Of a DNA stretch of 28,536 bases, positions 4,174 to 18,196 are shown in pieces (within the stretch, counting starts at the first letter, position 1; each line of letters opens with the position of its first letter). The stretch is from the IMG/VR virus record IMGVR_UViG_3300049440_000145, positions 1-28,536 of that record, one strand, 5' to 3'. The stretch comes from a virus. The position numbers and the translations under genes were made by a program. A model generated the notes under the pieces. It did no database searches and was not told the DNA's origin. It was given only the letters and a program-made list of their open reading frames with translations.

Positions 4174-4691
4174 TGCGCCGCCTCTGAAACGGTTTCCGGC
4201 AGCACCATCATTGCTACATCCACGTGCAATGTTTCGATTGGCCGCAAATCTGTTTGCGGCACAAAGAACGCTGGCCGGTCGCTTCGCTGTTTGTCGGCCC
4301 AATATTTTTGCTGTTTGCCTTCGTGGCCGTAGCACCAGCCCATTAGGTGAAACTTCGGCGCTTCTGGATGTACCAGGACAAATGGCAATTCGTCCTGGTC
4401 TTTGTCACCTGGGTGCAAAATTAAACAATCTGAACGCCTGGTGCATGACCGCACTTCAATTAAATTTCCCACATCAATCGCGCCAACATGCTTTGGCCCG
4501 GTCCAATAAAGATTGAAATGTTTTGCAACCGCCAATTCCGCCATTGCGCCCATCAATTGAAATTCCCACGGGAAAGGATTTGCTTCTGACCCGTAGGTTG
4601 GCGCGTGCTTAAACAATCCTTTCACGCGATACATGCAACCGACATGGCTGGCCATCATCAATTCGCGCCAGGTCAGCGTCACAGTAATCAT
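4170..4691 (-). CDS. Phage PD-(D/E)XK-like nuclease family protein (putative)
   Basis: This 173-aa protein starts at ATG 4691, which overlaps the VRR-NUC stop by ATGA; the frame is open further upstream but lacks a better start. The pattern GAMAELAVAKHF (48-59, Glu52), then AIDVG (71-75, Asp73), then LIEVR (77-81, Glu79) is the spacing of a PD-(D/E)XK core, with Arg81 in place of the usual Lys. The following PFVLVHPEAPKFHLMGWCYG (103-122) resembles strands of Holliday-resolvase-like phage proteins. From memory it belongs to a conserved but uncharacterised phage family. It sits between a VRR-NUC nuclease and the primase-helicase, consistent with recombination or fork processing. With the Lys replaced, catalytic activity is uncertain. 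Confidence 0.75.
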   Translation of the reverse strand: MITVTLTWRELMMASHVGCMYRVKGLFKHAPTYGSEANPFPWEFQLMGAMAELAVAKHFNLYWTGPKHVGAIDVGNLIEVRSCTRRSDCLILHPGDKDQDELPFVLVHPEAPKFHLMGWCYGHEGKQQKYWADKQRSDRPAFFVPQTDLRPIETLHVDVAMMVLPETVSEAAQ

Positions 4692-5107
4692 CACTGCACC
4701 TTCAGCACGGTGCGCAACGCGCCCCAATGCTGCAAATGCGCCACCACGTCTTCCAGATTGTCACACACCGCGTGCGGGAAGCCGTAGCGCAAACACCACG
4801 CCTTGAATTCCACTTGCGTCTTGCTGAGTTGGCCACCCTTGCGCTTCAACTCGATAAAGAACGTCTGCCGGTTTGGGCCAAGCAACACAAAATCCGGCAC
4901 GCCCGCCATCACGCCTTTGCGGTTCATTTCAACGCGGGTGATGATGTCGCGCCGCCCGCCGTTGGGCACGTGAAACATTTTCCATTCGGGATGCTTCCAG
5001 CGCCGCCAAACTTGAAACGCTTGCTTGTGCAGCTTGTCTTCAAGCGGTGTCGGTGGCGCTTTGCCGCGTTGGCGCTTGCTTCCAAATAAGGATAGCTGAC
5101 CAGCCAA
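4691..5107 (-). CDS. VRR-NUC domain nuclease
   Basis: This 138-aa protein shows the VRR-NUC signature: HVPNGGRR at 46-53, GVPDFVLL at 69-76 (Asp72), FIELKRKGGQLSKTQ at 84-98 (Glu86, Lys88, Gln98), then AWCLRYGF. Stand-alone viral VRR-NUC proteins are structure-specific nucleases that can cleave branched DNA. The start is TTG 5107. No ATG exists upstream of the conserved core, and the sequence GGAAGGAAACGCC before the TTG is a strong ribosome-binding site. It lies 14 bases after the Cro-like gene and overlaps the next nuclease-like gene by ATGA, so it is part of the early replication-recombination operon. Confidence 0.9.
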   Translation of the reverse strand: MAGQLSLFGSKRQRGKAPPTPLEDKLHKQAFQVWRRWKHPEWKMFHVPNGGRRDIITRVEMNRKGVMAGVPDFVLLGPNRQTFFIELKRKGGQLSKTQVEFKAWCLRYGFPHAVCDNLEDVVAHLQHWGALRTVLKVQ

Positions 5108-5121
5108 GGCGTTTCCTTCCG

Positions 5122-5349
5122 CTAAGCGGCATCAACATTGTTTTCCTGGCGCACAACTTCCGGCGCAACATTGCAATTGCGCCGCCGCAAAAGTTTGCGC
5201 ACGTCATCGGCTTTTGTTGCCGGAAAAAATCCACGGTTGCGCCAATTCCAGACGCATTGCGGTGTGGTGTTTAAGGTGCGGGCAGCTTCGCTAAGCCCAC
5301 CCAATTCGCGCAACACTTCGTCAAAGGTGGTCAGGGTTTTGCGTGACAT
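5122..5349 (-). CDS. Cro-like helix-turn-helix regulator (carph-isopro/YdaS-like)
   Basis: This 75-aa protein is the first gene of the leftward operon. Residues about 8-50 form a compact HTH: DEVLRELGGLSEAARTLNTT followed by PQCVWNWRNRGFFPA. The pattern of a short HTH ending in a W-x-x-R-G-x-x-P motif is typical of Cro-type phage regulators of the YdaS/carph-isopro group. Such proteins repress promoters in the adjacent divergent control region. The CGCAAA/TTTGCG inverted repeats at 5352-5440 are the natural candidate operators. The C-terminal NVAPEVVRQ segment is duplicated in the 67-aa protein at 3970-4173. Being first in a leftward operon, as cro often is in a rightward one, fits an early-gene regulator. 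Confidence 0.82.
   Translation of the reverse strand: MSRKTLTTFDEVLRELGGLSEAARTLNTTPQCVWNWRNRGFFPATKADDVRKLLRRRNCNVAPEVVRQENNVDAA
5151..5200. repeat. Imperfect direct repeat, copy 2 (pairs with 3978-4020)
   Basis: This is the second copy of the shared 3'-coding segment, here inside the Cro-like gene. It contains a 6-base CAATTG insertion relative to copy 1, which adds two codons. Confidence 0.65.
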
Positions 5350-11328: not shown

Positions 11329-12579
11329 TTAAGCGGTTTTGCGGAAAGCCACCACGTTGCCGCCCCGCTTCGGCTTGATGTCACCGCCAGCACGAATGCG
11401 CTTTAGCGCTTTGTCCAACACCACCAGCGCCGCCGCTTTGTCATCCTGGTAGGCATAGACTTCATTCGGGTCATAGACGCCGACAATGCCGCCCTGGATG
11501 TGGCCCAGCACCTTTTCGGCATACTCTTTCAGCACGCCATTCTGGCCCATGATGAAGCGTGCCGTGCGGCGCAAATCGTGATGCCGCCAAGCTGGAAACG
11601 GTTTGCGTCCGGTGCGCTTGCGGATTTCCGCCAGCTTTTTGTCCAGGGCTTTTTTGGCTTTTGAAAAGCCCTTGAAATCCGTTTCGCCGCCATCACTGGA
11701 AAACACGTAAGGGCTGTTGTTGTTTTTAATCAGCGCCAGCATGGTGTCGGTCAGCGTGACCAGGTGTGGGTGCTTGCCGCCTTTGTTGCGTTCCTTTGGG
11801 ATTATCCATTCGCGGCCTTTGACTTCGCTGCGCTTCATTTCCGATGGCATCCGCAGCCTGGTCGCGCTGAAAAACAGCATGTGGACAAACGGGCGATAAC
11901 AAAGTGGCGTTGACCCTTCGGCATGGCATTCGTCCAGTGCCAGAAACACGTCGCGGATTTCTTCGGCATCCAGCATCCGTTCACGCACGTTGCTTTTGCC
12001 ACCCATGCCTTTAACGATGGGCGAACGGAAATCGTCATCATCCGCCTTGGCGGCATACCAATTGAAAGCCTTGCGCACCCAGGCCAGCGTGCGGTTTGCC
12101 TGGGTGGGCGCACGCTCGCGGATTATATTCAGCATCCGGTTGATGTCGCTTTTTTTGACATCGTAAATGACCATGTTGCCGATGGCTGGGCGCACGTCCA
12201 ATTTGAACGCGCCCACCGCCTGGTGGCCGGATTTGATTTTTGCGAAGTGTTCTTTTTCAACCAGGTCCAGCAGGGCATTGACTGTTTTGCCGCCACGGTT
12301 GCGGGTCTGCTGTTTTTCCTGGTGCGGGTCACGCCCGTCAGCGATTTCGCCGCCACGCTTGACGGCCAGCTTGCGGGCCACGTCCGGTGTGATGCGATTG
12401 AACAAGCCAAGCACCGTTTCCTTCGGCTTCCCGTCTTTGCGGTATTTCAAAATGAAGGTGATGCCGCTGCCGTATTTACGCGCCGTGAAACCCTGAATTT
12501 TGTCATCGGTGATAAGGCTGGCATCCAGTTGGCCGTTGGCCAATTTGGTGCAATTGGCCTTGTTAATTCTTAGCTGCAT
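11329..12579 (-). CDS. int: Tyrosine recombinase integrase
   Basis: This 416-aa P4-like integrase has an N-terminal arm-binding region (about 1-90, with the GLFNRITPDVARKLAVKRGG segment), a core-binding SAM-like domain (about 95-190), and a catalytic domain. The latter shows Arg in SATRLRMPSEM (near 241-243), the Lys-containing KERNKGGKHPHLVTL (262-276), HHDLRR (333-338, the H-x-x-R box), LGH at 358-360 and the likely nucleophile Tyr369 in GVYDPNE. It catalyses site-specific integration and, with Xis, excision. It reads leftward into the secreted-protein gene. Upstream lies the CCCCTT repeat region and then tRNA-Lys, a common layout for attP. Confidence 0.95.
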   Translation of the reverse strand: MQLRINKANCTKLANGQLDASLITDDKIQGFTARKYGSGITFILKYRKDGKPKETVLGLFNRITPDVARKLAVKRGGEIADGRDPHQEKQQTRNRGGKTVNALLDLVEKEHFAKIKSGHQAVGAFKLDVRPAIGNMVIYDVKKSDINRMLNIIRERAPTQANRTLAWVRKAFNWYAAKADDDDFRSPIVKGMGGKSNVRERMLDAEEIRDVFLALDECHAEGSTPLCYRPFVHMLFFSATRLRMPSEMKRSEVKGREWIIPKERNKGGKHPHLVTLTDTMLALIKNNNSPYVFSSDGGETDFKGFSKAKKALDKKLAEIRKRTGRKPFPAWRHHDLRRTARFIMGQNGVLKEYAEKVLGHIQGGIVGVYDPNEVYAYQDDKAAALVVLDKALKRIRAGGDIKPKRGGNVVAFRKTA

Positions 12580-12647
12580 GGTGAGTTGTTCCCCGTTGAT
12601 TTGTTACACGCAGCGTGACTTTTATCGAAAAATCAGTGGGCCGTCCA

Positions 12648-12671
12648 CCCCTTCGCTGCCCCTTCGCATGA
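12648..12671 (+). repeat. CCCCTTC double-unit repeat, copy 1
   Basis: Two CCCCTTCG units start at 12648 and 12659, 11 bases apart. The block matches 12866-12889 with two differences. Candidate integrase arm-type site. Confidence 0.65.
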
Positions 12672-12865
12672 GCATGAAACGCTGGGAAACAAGGGGAAAC
12701 AGCCAACAGCGATGAAATGCCTGGATACCAGCGGTTTTATTGATTGTTTCGATGTTTTTGTGTGCTGTCAGTAACTTAATCAGTAGGGCGAAATAAAACT
12801 TTTAATCAGGTGGCCGATGCCAAAAGTGGCTGTGGCACAAGGGGTTTTGAAAGCCGAGTTTTGCG

Positions 12866-12889
12866 CCCCTTCACTGCCCCTTCGGATGA
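12866..12889 (+). repeat. CCCCTTC double-unit repeat, copy 2
   Basis: CCCCTTC units start at 12866 and 12877, keeping the 11-base spacing of copy 1. Together with the opposite-strand units at 12691 and 12839 this gives six copies around a presumed core. Confidence 0.65.
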
Positions 12890-12931
12890 AATCGGTTTTA
12901 AAAGGGAAATCGTCACGTCGCGTGTAACTGT

Positions 12932-13005
12932 GGACCCGTAGCACAACGGTAGTGCATCCGACTTTTAATCGGCTGACGAAGGTTCAACTCCTTCCGGGTC
13001 CACCA
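12932..13005 (+). tRNA. tRNA-Lys (UUU) with encoded CCA
   Basis: A complete 74-base cloverleaf folds by eye. Acceptor stem GGACCCG/CGGGTCC; D stem GCAC/GTGC; anticodon loop CTTTTAA with anticodon TTT at 12964-12966; anticodon stem four pairs plus a T-C mismatch at 27/43; T stem GAAGG/CCTTC with loop TTCAACT; discriminator A and an encoded CCA (13003-13005). It reads AAA and AAG lysine codons. It is intact, so it is more likely a phage-carried tRNA than an att fragment, although its anticodon region shares ten bases with the nearby attP-like core. Confidence 0.93.
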
Positions 13006-15101: not shown

Positions 15102-15527
15102 ATGTCAAAACGGGCAACAGCGGTTGATTTTGAAATATCCAAACGCATAAAGGCGCTACGCATCAAGGCTGGGCTGACCCAGGAAAAGCTTGCCGAAAAG
15201 ATGGGGCTGACGTTCCAGCAAATGCAGAAATATGAAACGGGCAAAAACCGCGTTGCCGGGTCACGCTTTATGGATTTGTCCAAACATTTGAAAGTGCCGG
15301 TGGCCACTTTTTTCGGCCAGGATAATCAGGCCGGTGAAGTGTTTGTTGACACGCGCATCAACTCGCCGCTGCGCCAGGACATCATCAGTTTGCTTGACCG
15401 CGTTAATACCAAGGCGATGGAAAACAACATTTATGGCATCATCAGCCTGGTGGTTGATAAAAAATGGGCATTTCGGAAACGCAACGGCAATTACACCGCA
15501 ACACGGGTGAAGGCTGGAAGCCGATGA
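15102..15527 (+). CDS. XRE-family transcriptional regulator
   Basis: This 141-aa protein has a complete XRE helix-turn-helix at about 10-71: DFEISKRIKALRIKAGLTQE then KLAEKMGLTFQQMQKYETGK and LSKHLKVPVATFF. The C-terminal 70 residues form a helical domain (LRQDIISLLDRVNTKAMEN) that could dimerise. It is longer than Cro and is the best CI-like repressor candidate in the window, although it sits within an accessory operon. Possible targets include the palindromic operators at 17462-17478 and 17554-17572 or the early region at 5350-5440; this is inference. Confidence 0.88.
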   Translation: MSKRATAVDFEISKRIKALRIKAGLTQEKLAEKMGLTFQQMQKYETGKNRVAGSRFMDLSKHLKVPVATFFGQDNQAGEVFVDTRINSPLRQDIISLLDRVNTKAMENNIYGIISLVVDKKWAFRKRNGNYTATRVKAGSR

Positions 15528-16829: not shown

Positions 16830-16994
16830 CTAAATGCGGCCTTCAAATATGTCTGTGATTTTTTCCCAAAGCTTTTGAAAGCGCTGCTCCGCCTTTTCAT
16901 TTGCGGCGCGTTCTTTTATTGTTTCAAGGCCATTCAAAACGTCCACCATTTCTTGCTGGTCAAGCGTGATGGTATATTTGTCTTTCAGCGTCAT
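16830..16994 (-). CDS. Small helical protein at the end of the leftward regulator operon
   Basis: This 54-aa gene starts at ATG 16994 with an excellent GGAAGGAAG ribosome-binding site about eight bases away. The protein begins MTLKDKYTITLDQQEMVDVL and continues into a charged helix ending in WEKITDIFEGRI. Its ribosome-binding site overlaps the stop of the HTH gene, and its own stop lies just before the bidirectional terminator. No family is recognised. Confidence 0.75.
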   Translation of the reverse strand: MTLKDKYTITLDQQEMVDVLNGLETIKERAANEKAEQRFQKLWEKITDIFEGRI

Positions 16995-16996
16995 TG

Positions 16997-17209
16997 TCAG
17001 GCTTCCTTCCGTTTGATGAATTGTTTGAAGGCGGGTGTGTTCATCGTTGCCACCAGGTAACGCAAAAACCGCGTCACGGTGACGGGCACTGGCGTTTCAT
17101 CCAGCGCCCACTTGCGCGATGTGCGCGGGTCAACGCCCAGGACGCGGGCGGCTTCCACCTGGTTAAGTTGAAGGTGCGCAATCAGGGCGCGATATTCCTG
17201 GCCGGTCAT
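16997..17209 (-). CDS. Small helix-turn-helix DNA-binding protein
   Basis: This 70-aa protein uses ATG 17209 (AAGGTGG upstream); the longer open frame is a shadow of the promoter region. Residues 1-32, MTGQEYRALIAHLQLNQVEA followed by ARVLGVDPRTSRKW, form a Cro/XRE-like HTH, and the rest is helical (TVTRFLRYLVATMNTPAFKQ). It is the obvious candidate to bind the twin operators 250-360 bases upstream at its own promoter and the opposing one, so it may be autoregulated. That link is inference. Confidence 0.82.
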   Translation of the reverse strand: MTGQEYRALIAHLQLNQVEAARVLGVDPRTSRKWALDETPVPVTVTRFLRYLVATMNTPAFKQFIKRKEA

Positions 17210-17210
17210 A

Positions 17211-17432
17211 TCACGCCACCTTGTCGGCGCGGATGATGGCACACATTGAATAGTTGCCGAATGGCTTAAACTGTTCAACGCCGTCACGCAGCGAAAGCCC
17301 GCGCCGCACTGTTTTGCCGTGGACGTTGACGGTGACTGACTTGGCGGTGCGGCTGAGAATGGCGAAAGAAAAAATGCATTCGCTATCGCAGATTGACCGG
17401 GTGGCGTAGGTGCGTCCGACTTGGAATTGCAT
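17211..17432 (-). CDS. Conserved phage hypothetical protein
   Basis: This 73-aa protein is first in the leftward trio, with GGAG seven bases before ATG 17432. MQFQVGRTYATRSICDSECI then FSFAILSRTAKSVTVNVHGK and EQFKPFGNYSMCAIIRADKV are recalled from many alphaproteobacterial phages and plasmids, without known function. It appears to be a small beta protein. It ends just before the HTH gene. Confidence 0.78.
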   Translation of the reverse strand: MQFQVGRTYATRSICDSECIFSFAILSRTAKSVTVNVHGKTVRRGLSLRDGVEQFKPFGNYSMCAIIRADKVA

Positions 17433-17457: not shown

Positions 17458-17487
17458 TATATAGGCCCTTATGGCCTACGGTGTCAA
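17458..17487 (-). promoter_or_regulatory. Leftward promoter with embedded palindromic operator
   Basis: Reading leftward, TTGACA (17487-17482) and TATATA (17463-17458) are separated by 18 bases. The spacer and -10 contain TAGGCC-N5-GGCCTA (plus strand 17462-17478). A repressor bound here would block polymerase. It drives the 73-aa gene, the HTH protein and the 54-aa gene. Confidence 0.85.
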
Positions 17488-17545
17488 CACCCAAAAACAG
17501 CCATAAAAGCCTTGTATTGCAGGGCATTATTAATGATTTTCCCTG

Positions 17546-17575
17546 TTGACATGGTAGGCCCTAATGGCCTACTTT
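17546..17575 (+). promoter_or_regulatory. Rightward promoter with matching palindromic operator
   Basis: TTGACA (17546-17551), 18-base spacer and TACTTT (17570-17575). The spacer carries a perfect GTAGGCC-CTAAT-GGCCTAC palindrome (17554-17572), the same operator as in the opposing promoter. It drives the 176-aa gene at 17615. Confidence 0.85.
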
Positions 17576-17614: not shown

Positions 17615-18145
17615 ATGCCTAACAAATACGTTGCCCGCCTGGACGGAAAAATCGTTGGCAAGCGCACCAGCGCCAGCCGCACCTACACCCACGCCATCGT
17701 TGTGTTGCCTGACGTGAACAAGGCGCGTGACGCGGCTTACAACTACGTTGGCTTTGACCATGACCGCAGCAACTATGAATATGAATGCGGCATCGCCAAG
17801 TGCGAAGGCGTCATCATCGACGCAAACGACACCACAACCTATAAAGGCCCATGCGCGGGCCAAACCAGCTACATCAACAAATACTGCGGTCGCATGGTTC
17901 GCAGCTACACCGCAGAGGAAATTGCCGATGCAAAAACACAAACTGCTGGTGGTTGGGATGGCTATGTCGCCCTGCAACGCGCCACTGCTGTTGAACGGTT
18001 TGAGGAAAACTTAGCGCAAGGCGTGTTCACACCTGGTGTGGCCACCTGGTGCGGGCGGGCTGACCTGGCGCAGAAGGAGGCCGCCAAGCATGGCAAGCGT
18101 GACTATATCGCCCAGGTCTGGATTGTACCGGCTGAAAAAGTCTGA
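17615..18145 (+). CDS. Operator-controlled hypothetical protein
   Basis: This 176-aa protein starts at ATG 17615, preceded by AGAGGA. Earlier in-frame ATGs (17564, 17582) fall inside the promoter or at its predicted transcription start, so they are rejected. It begins MPNKYVARLDGKIVGKRTSA followed by SRTYTHAIVVLPD, an opening that I recall from rhizobial phages and plasmids. The C-terminal third is helical with RADLAQKEAAKHGKRDYIAQ. No domain is recognised. Its own tightly repressed promoter and downstream terminator make a single-gene unit, a layout often used for lysogeny-time or counter-repressor functions; this is inference. Confidence 0.82.
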   Translation: MPNKYVARLDGKIVGKRTSASRTYTHAIVVLPDVNKARDAAYNYVGFDHDRSNYEYECGIAKCEGVIIDANDTTTYKGPCAGQTSYINKYCGRMVRSYTAEEIADAKTQTAGGWDGYVALQRATAVERFEENLAQGVFTPGVATWCGRADLAQKEAAKHGKRDYIAQVWIVPAEKV

Positions 18146-18172
18146 CACACCGCACCAGGACAAGACGCAAAG

Positions 18173-18196
18173 CCCCGCCACGTTGGCGGGGTTTTT
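18173..18196 (+). terminator. Intrinsic terminator of the operator-controlled gene
   Basis: CCCCGCCA (18173-18180) pairs with TGGCGGGG (18184-18191) around a CGT loop, followed by five Ts. The stop codon of the convergent 58-aa gene (18195-18197) lies in this T run. Confidence 0.92.

Follow-up and report, generated by a model that had tools for sequence, protein, structure and literature searches.

The two divergent promoters in this viral DNA are very probably repressed by one small helix-turn-helix (HTH) protein of 70 aa, which would act on both as an Aca1-like autorepressor. This reading was drawn from sequence and structure comparisons. It follows from the conservation of the operator beside relatives of the HTH protein, the reciprocal retrieval of such proteins with the operator as bait, an operator geometry like that of Aca1 and a kinship of the protein with Aca proteins. 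The whole stretch analyzed, here called the window, is the IMG/VR virus record IMGVR_UViG_3300049440_000145 with a length of 28,536 bases.

The palindrome TAGGCC-N5-GGCCTA was found exactly twice in the 28.5-kb record, as TAGGCCCTTATGGCCTA on the left and as TAGGCCCTAATGGCCTA on the right (Table 1). A record-wide search with the looser pattern TAGG-N9-CCTA returned the same two palindromes and no other sites. The preliminary description had placed one palindrome in the spacer of each of two opposing promoters with a TTGACA element and an 18-base spacer, and these coordinates were borne out. It had also rated both -10 elements as good. This was not upheld, since TATATA matches the consensus in 4/6 and TACTTT in 3/6 positions, and a consensus promoter scanner run on the window listed neither of the two promoters. 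The longer form of the operator, GTAGGCCN5GGCCTAC, applies to the right site with its perfect 7-bp arm, but the left site ends in T. At both promoters, the -10 begins with the final TA of the operator, as is the case across the whole operator family. The operator centers are 93 bp apart, corresponding to ~8.9 helical turns. Searching the record for TTGACANNGTAGGCCN5GGCCTA with up to three mismatches resulted in two matches, both exact, where a mean of 0.01 was expected; two matches were obtained in 0/100 shuffles. The window contains 13 perfect 6-N5-6 palindromes, and within the tested offset range behind TTGAC only the operator pair was found.

Table 1. Operators, promoters and genes of the divergent locus (positions in the window)
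Feature	Position	Strand	Remarks
Left operator	17462..17478	-	TAGGCC-ATAAG-GGCCTA read leftward; within the spacer of the leftward promoter
Right operator	17555..17571	+	TAGGCC-CTAAT-GGCCTA; within the spacer of the rightward promoter
Leftward promoter	17458..17487	-	-35 TTGACA 17482-17487, 18-bp spacer, -10 TATATA 17458-17463; geometry common to JBD30 and relatives
Rightward promoter	17546..17575	+	-35 TTGACA 17546-17551, 18-bp spacer, weak -10 TACTTT 17570-17575
73-aa protein	17211..17432	-	first gene of the leftward operon; predicted small beta protein; kept in other phages and some plasmids
70-aa helix-turn-helix protein	16997..17209	-	second leftward gene; proposed Aca1-like repressor of both promoters
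54-aa protein	16830..16994	-	final gene of the leftward operon
176-aa orphan protein	17615..18145	+	sole rightward gene
Intrinsic terminator	18169..18195	+	12-bp stem, T-rich tail; 3' of the 176-aa gene

The leftward transcript does encode the 70-aa HTH protein, as had been described, and the gene lies between those of the 73-aa and 54-aa proteins. Likewise, the description of the rightward transcript as one orphan gene with its own terminator was confirmed, the terminator being a strong one. Weak relatives of the 176-aa protein (~30% identity; proteins unnamed) occur in Caulobacter jumbo phages and in one Serratia phage, where the divergent arrangement is not shared, and a search of IMG/VR for close relatives found none. 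Family libraries gave no relatives of the 54-aa protein. The 73-aa protein has a predicted small beta fold, and its structural matches are uncharacterized phage proteins only. It recurs as the first gene under a TAGG-N9-CCTA operator in three loci (L071, L020, L021), and in three others (L016, L017, L022) its homologues share an operon with HTH-family genes. In L020 (3196-3285) and in the matching leader of L021, a possible long stem, GGCGCTTTGGTCGCC...GGCGACCAAAGCGCC, lies between the operator promoter and the 73-aa gene; this stem had no match in Rfam. An Rfam scan of the window locus detected a tRNA and no other RNA family. A different arrangement was seen in L019. Here, the gene of the 73-aa homologue at 5001 is preceded by a pair of GTCACGTGAC palindromes, one within a promoter spacer and the other just upstream of that promoter, which by their sequence hint at an unrelated autorepressor acting on the same 73-aa gene family. 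Overall, the operon genes of HTH relatives are diverse and mostly without assigned function.

We then turn to the conservation of the operator. The closest relatives of the 70-aa HTH protein come from four viral contigs (53-59% identity). An exact TAGGCC-N5-GGCCTA heads the operon that ends with the HTH gene in L003 and L006, and a version with one mismatch does so in L004 and L005. Distant relatives were collected by a profile search in 392 genomes of the family of Bradyrhizobium jicamae. TAGG-N9-CCTA was present upstream of the HTH gene in 11 of 34 non-redundant loci, with 16 sites in all, 9 of them full 6-N5-6 palindromes. In these loci it stands 2-3 bp after a TTGAC -35. Dinucleotide shuffles of the 34 loci, a control whose model does not include promoter composition, gave an expectation of 0.05 sites and zero palindromes. 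As a further control, the downstream regions of the 34 loci were searched and contained zero TAGG-N9-CCTA sites. The check proposed in the preliminary description, conservation of the operator beside homologues of the HTH gene, thus turned out positive both in the closest relatives L003-L006 and in the set of 34 loci.

The inner operator bases differ among phages (TAGGCC, TAGGGC, TAGGAC, TAGGCT), and the constant features are TAGG/CCTA and the length of 17 bp. Some members of the wider HTH family have no TAGG operators, including those of L016, L017 and L022 that are co-operonic with 73-aa homologues; therefore, this operator type is not a trait of the whole superfamily. The HTH relative in L016 is accompanied by about five TATGCC/TGTGCC-N5-GGCATA-like sites across at least two promoters (4337-4401 and 4717-4781), indicating that operator specificity has shifted within the HTH family. 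Columns 23 and 33 of the HTH alignment are associated with operator base 5 (the observed value was reached in 0 and 6 of 500 permutations, which ignore kinship). This gives only a hint that these columns might be specificity residues. A TAGGAC palindrome from Streptomyces (L027) was set aside, as it is located 2.6 kb upstream and has long extra arms.

Among the compared loci, two strict sites facing apart behind strong -35 elements occur in the window only. In L166/L172 and L183, a leftward operator promoter is combined with a divergently transcribed HTH gene, and in L003/L006 a near-match to a second operator is directed toward a divergent gene. Some related phages have 5-14 TAGG-N9-CCTA operators. 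Counts per contig compared to a reversed control were 14 versus 0 (a 29-kb contig), 10 versus 1, 9 versus 0 and 9 versus 2, and tandem pairs 17 bp apart are frequent in these multi-operator phages. Since other phages use several operators, the window can be regarded as the two-promoter version of a wider design. One may ask if the HTH protein represses the leftward operon only, with the right operator as an extra site for cooperative binding or for a 93-bp loop and the 176-aa gene not being a target. Many relatives do carry a pair of operators at a single promoter, usually at a distance of 17 bp, second repeats at Aca1 and Aca2 promoters are dispensable for repression (PMC9410906), and the right -10 TACTTT is weak. 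In contrast, the right operator follows a perfect TTGACA of its own in the canonical position and is aligned with a separately terminated rightward gene, and the many operators of related phages lie mostly within promoters of their own. We consider repression of the leftward operon alone unlikely and favor an action of the HTH protein on both promoters. In the 29-kb contig with 14 operators (L071, G405), most of the sites form tandem pairs 17 bp apart, and the contig also encodes the HTH protein and a homologue of the 73-aa protein. Judged by its sequence, this contig looks like a phage-wide regulon.

A second regulator is encoded in the window, a 141-aa XRE protein (15105-15527, + strand). 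It could be the true operator-binding, immunity-type repressor, and the 70-aa HTH protein would then have another target. Such 17-bp palindromes are targets of XRE/HTH_3 proteins, and the 141-aa protein has by far the stronger HTH family score in the window. However, among the fetched loci, homologues of the XRE protein were found in 2 and those of the 70-aa HTH protein in 71, and the operator travels together with the 70-aa HTH family. The XRE gene is also ~1.5 kb away from the leftward operon, and its vicinity yielded no operator copies. Based on the co-occurrence (2 versus 71 loci), the XRE protein was rejected as the regulator, and we regard this possibility as very improbable.

The reciprocal experiment used the operator pattern as bait. 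A scan of IMG/VR with TTGACNNATAGGNCNNNNNGNCCTAT retrieved 100 stretches, compared to 1 for a control of the same composition with rearranged arms, where the control was a single pattern and the retrieved loci are partly redundant and include many fragments. The HTH family was detected at E < 1e-3 in 53 of 97 new loci. A broader profile increased this number to 65, leaving 32 operator loci, many of them short fragments, without an HTH of the 70-aa family. In 48 of the 53 loci, the nearest HTH gene followed the operator at a distance of up to 2.5 kb and had the same orientation (P ~1e-23 if four placements are taken as equally likely). A pattern with the window-like 18-bp spacer added 21 further IMG/VR stretches, most of them with a match to the HTH profile. 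Altogether, 80 distinct HTH sequences could be matched to operators. Of 230 non-redundant operator sites, 70 fall outside both retrieval patterns, and here TTGA hexamers are concentrated at distances of 2 bp (29) or 3 bp (4) ahead of TAGG. The full operator-promoter motif of the window had no exact match in IMG/VR, and no relevant publication on a phage operator of the TAGG/CCTA type came up in a literature search. Operator loci without a detectable HTH gene would agree with palindromes that are host-regulator sites, chance matches or RNA features, but the chance expectation of 0.01 in the window, the 16 versus 0.05 sites upstream and zero downstream of HTH genes, the 100 versus 1 stretches in IMG/VR, and the bias of operator strand and distance toward the HTH gene make this extremely improbable.

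Next, we consider the kinship of the 70-aa HTH protein with Aca proteins. In a profile search of solved structures, the top matches included Aca10 (7xi5, E-value 2e-6), Aca1 (2e-5), Aca3 (9e-5) and Aca2 (2e-4); structure 7xi5 was described as Aca10 (PMC9410881). An alignment with Aca1 by hhalign had a probability of 95% with 29% identity over 52 columns, i.e. the similarity is remote. The AlphaFold model of the protein (pLDDT 94) had its best fold match in Aca2, with 1.1 A over 56 columns and Aca1 close behind. The Foldseek E-values were weak (best 0.019), as is usual with small HTH folds. The Pfam family Aca2_YdiL (PF08965) scored 13.2 bits on the 70-aa protein, below the cut-off of 23.8, and reached 0.01 or better in 3 of 37 HTH relatives.

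The Aca1 binding sequence contains TAGGCACAATGTGCCTA (PMC9410881). In the record of Pseudomonas phage JBD30, the proven Aca1 operator precedes the acrIF1-aca1 operon and reads TTGCGA-AT-TAGGCACAATGTGCCTA-ATCT. The tested members of every bacterial Aca family repress promoters via such inverted repeats (PMC9410906). As in an Aca system, the window encodes a small single-domain HTH protein (70 aa) related to Aca1, and the core promoter of the operon encoding this protein contains an Aca1-type inverted repeat. In both JBD30 and the window, the TAGG-N9-CCTA skeleton starts at a distance of 2 bp from the -35 hexamer and extends into the -10, and a small HTH regulator with profile similarity is located downstream in the same operon. 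The operator operons in general resemble acr-aca operons, with an operator promoter, one to few short and varied genes, and the HTH gene last. The two systems differ in the inner operator bases, which are CA in JBD30 and CC in the window, in the remote sequence similarity of the HTH proteins, in the lack of known acr genes among the examined operons and in the second, divergent promoter of the window with its identical operator. Acr families represented in NCBIfam and Pfam gave no match at 1e-3 among 79 proteins of operator operons, including the three of the window. By this search, the operons examined contain no recognizable anti-CRISPR gene, and the 70-aa protein was therefore not filed as an Aca protein. 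Toxin families did not match the window neighbors of the 70-aa protein, so the partner expected in a toxin-antitoxin pair (HigA2, MqsA-like antitoxin) was not found.

Aca2/YdiL (PF08965), Aca3 and Aca10 have the HTH fold class in common with the window protein and repress their own operons through promoter inverted repeats (PMC9410906, PMC9410881). In contrast to it, Aca2 is longer with its own dimerization domain (PMC9410906), and the Aca10 operator ATACGCTCATTGAGCGTAT (PMC9410881) is unrelated to that of the window. The Bradyrhizobium phage ppBeUSDA76-2 (L009), one of the phages that Bradyrhizobium elkanii USDA 76 produces spontaneously (PMC10127595), encodes an HTH protein with 54% identity over 54 residues and carries the operator TAGGGCCACTTGCCCTA 344 bp upstream; it differs in the inner base G, in the absence of a clear TTGACA before the site and in other neighboring genes. 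The immunity repressors lambda cI and P22 c2 also bind as HTH dimers to 17-bp palindromes in promoter-overlapping operators. Unlike these two-domain lysogeny repressors, the regulator of the window is a single 70-aa domain in a short accessory operon.

Based on these data, we propose the following regulation. Early in infection, host RNA polymerase would fire both divergent promoters. The leftward operon would yield the 73-aa, HTH and 54-aa proteins, and the rightward transcript the 176-aa protein. Upon accumulation, the HTH protein would bind, presumably as a dimer, to each TAGGCC-N5-GGCCTA operator. A bound operator fills the spacer between -35 and -10 and overlaps the -10, so that RNA polymerase would be blocked and both transcripts shut off, including that of the HTH protein itself. 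The controlled genes would be accessory and possibly directed against host defense. The earlier suggestion that one regulator, the autoregulated 70-aa HTH protein, silences both directions is supported by conservation, reciprocal retrieval and the Aca1-like geometry. The term switch, which was used for the locus, is not supported, as there is no sign of a system with two stable states. An early burst limited by simple negative autoregulation is the better fit.

The pair of operator and HTH protein matches the Aca1 design, which makes the controlled genes candidates for anti-defense functions. A more far-reaching reading, which we put forward only tentatively, is that TAGG-N9-CCTA and its HTH family represent a widespread, undescribed phage regulatory code, mainly alphaproteobacterial. 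Under this code, a single Aca1-like repressor would control as many as about ten promoters, and the small genes under its control, including those for the 73-, 54- and 176-aa proteins, would encode new anti-defense proteins. Anti-CRISPR genes are usually searched for with Aca proteins as bait, and remote Aca families escape a profile search alone. A DNA operator is a specific bait, with one promoter-operator pattern leading to ~100 phage stretches versus 1 for the control, and each retrieved stretch gives a short operon of candidate genes for anti-defense tests. Judging from the multi-operator phages, the control exerted by an Aca-like repressor may extend past one operon to a regulon that spans the phage.

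In six loci (L069, L077, L081, L094, L149, L160), the first gene under the operator resembles SpoT/MESH1-like HD hydrolases. One scanned operon protein matched the HD_4 and RelA/SpoT families, and the remaining HD-like cases were recognized by sequence resemblance. Such a protein could possibly be an alarmone hydrolase directed at the host. Elsewhere in the window, a tyrosine integrase (11329-12579, - strand) adjoins a complete tRNA-Lys(TTT) gene (12932-13005), and the region 11329-13005 is likely the attachment region. A 75-aa protein (5122-5349, - strand) has similarity to YdaS, P22 Cro and carph-isopro, and is probably a separate Cro-like regulator.
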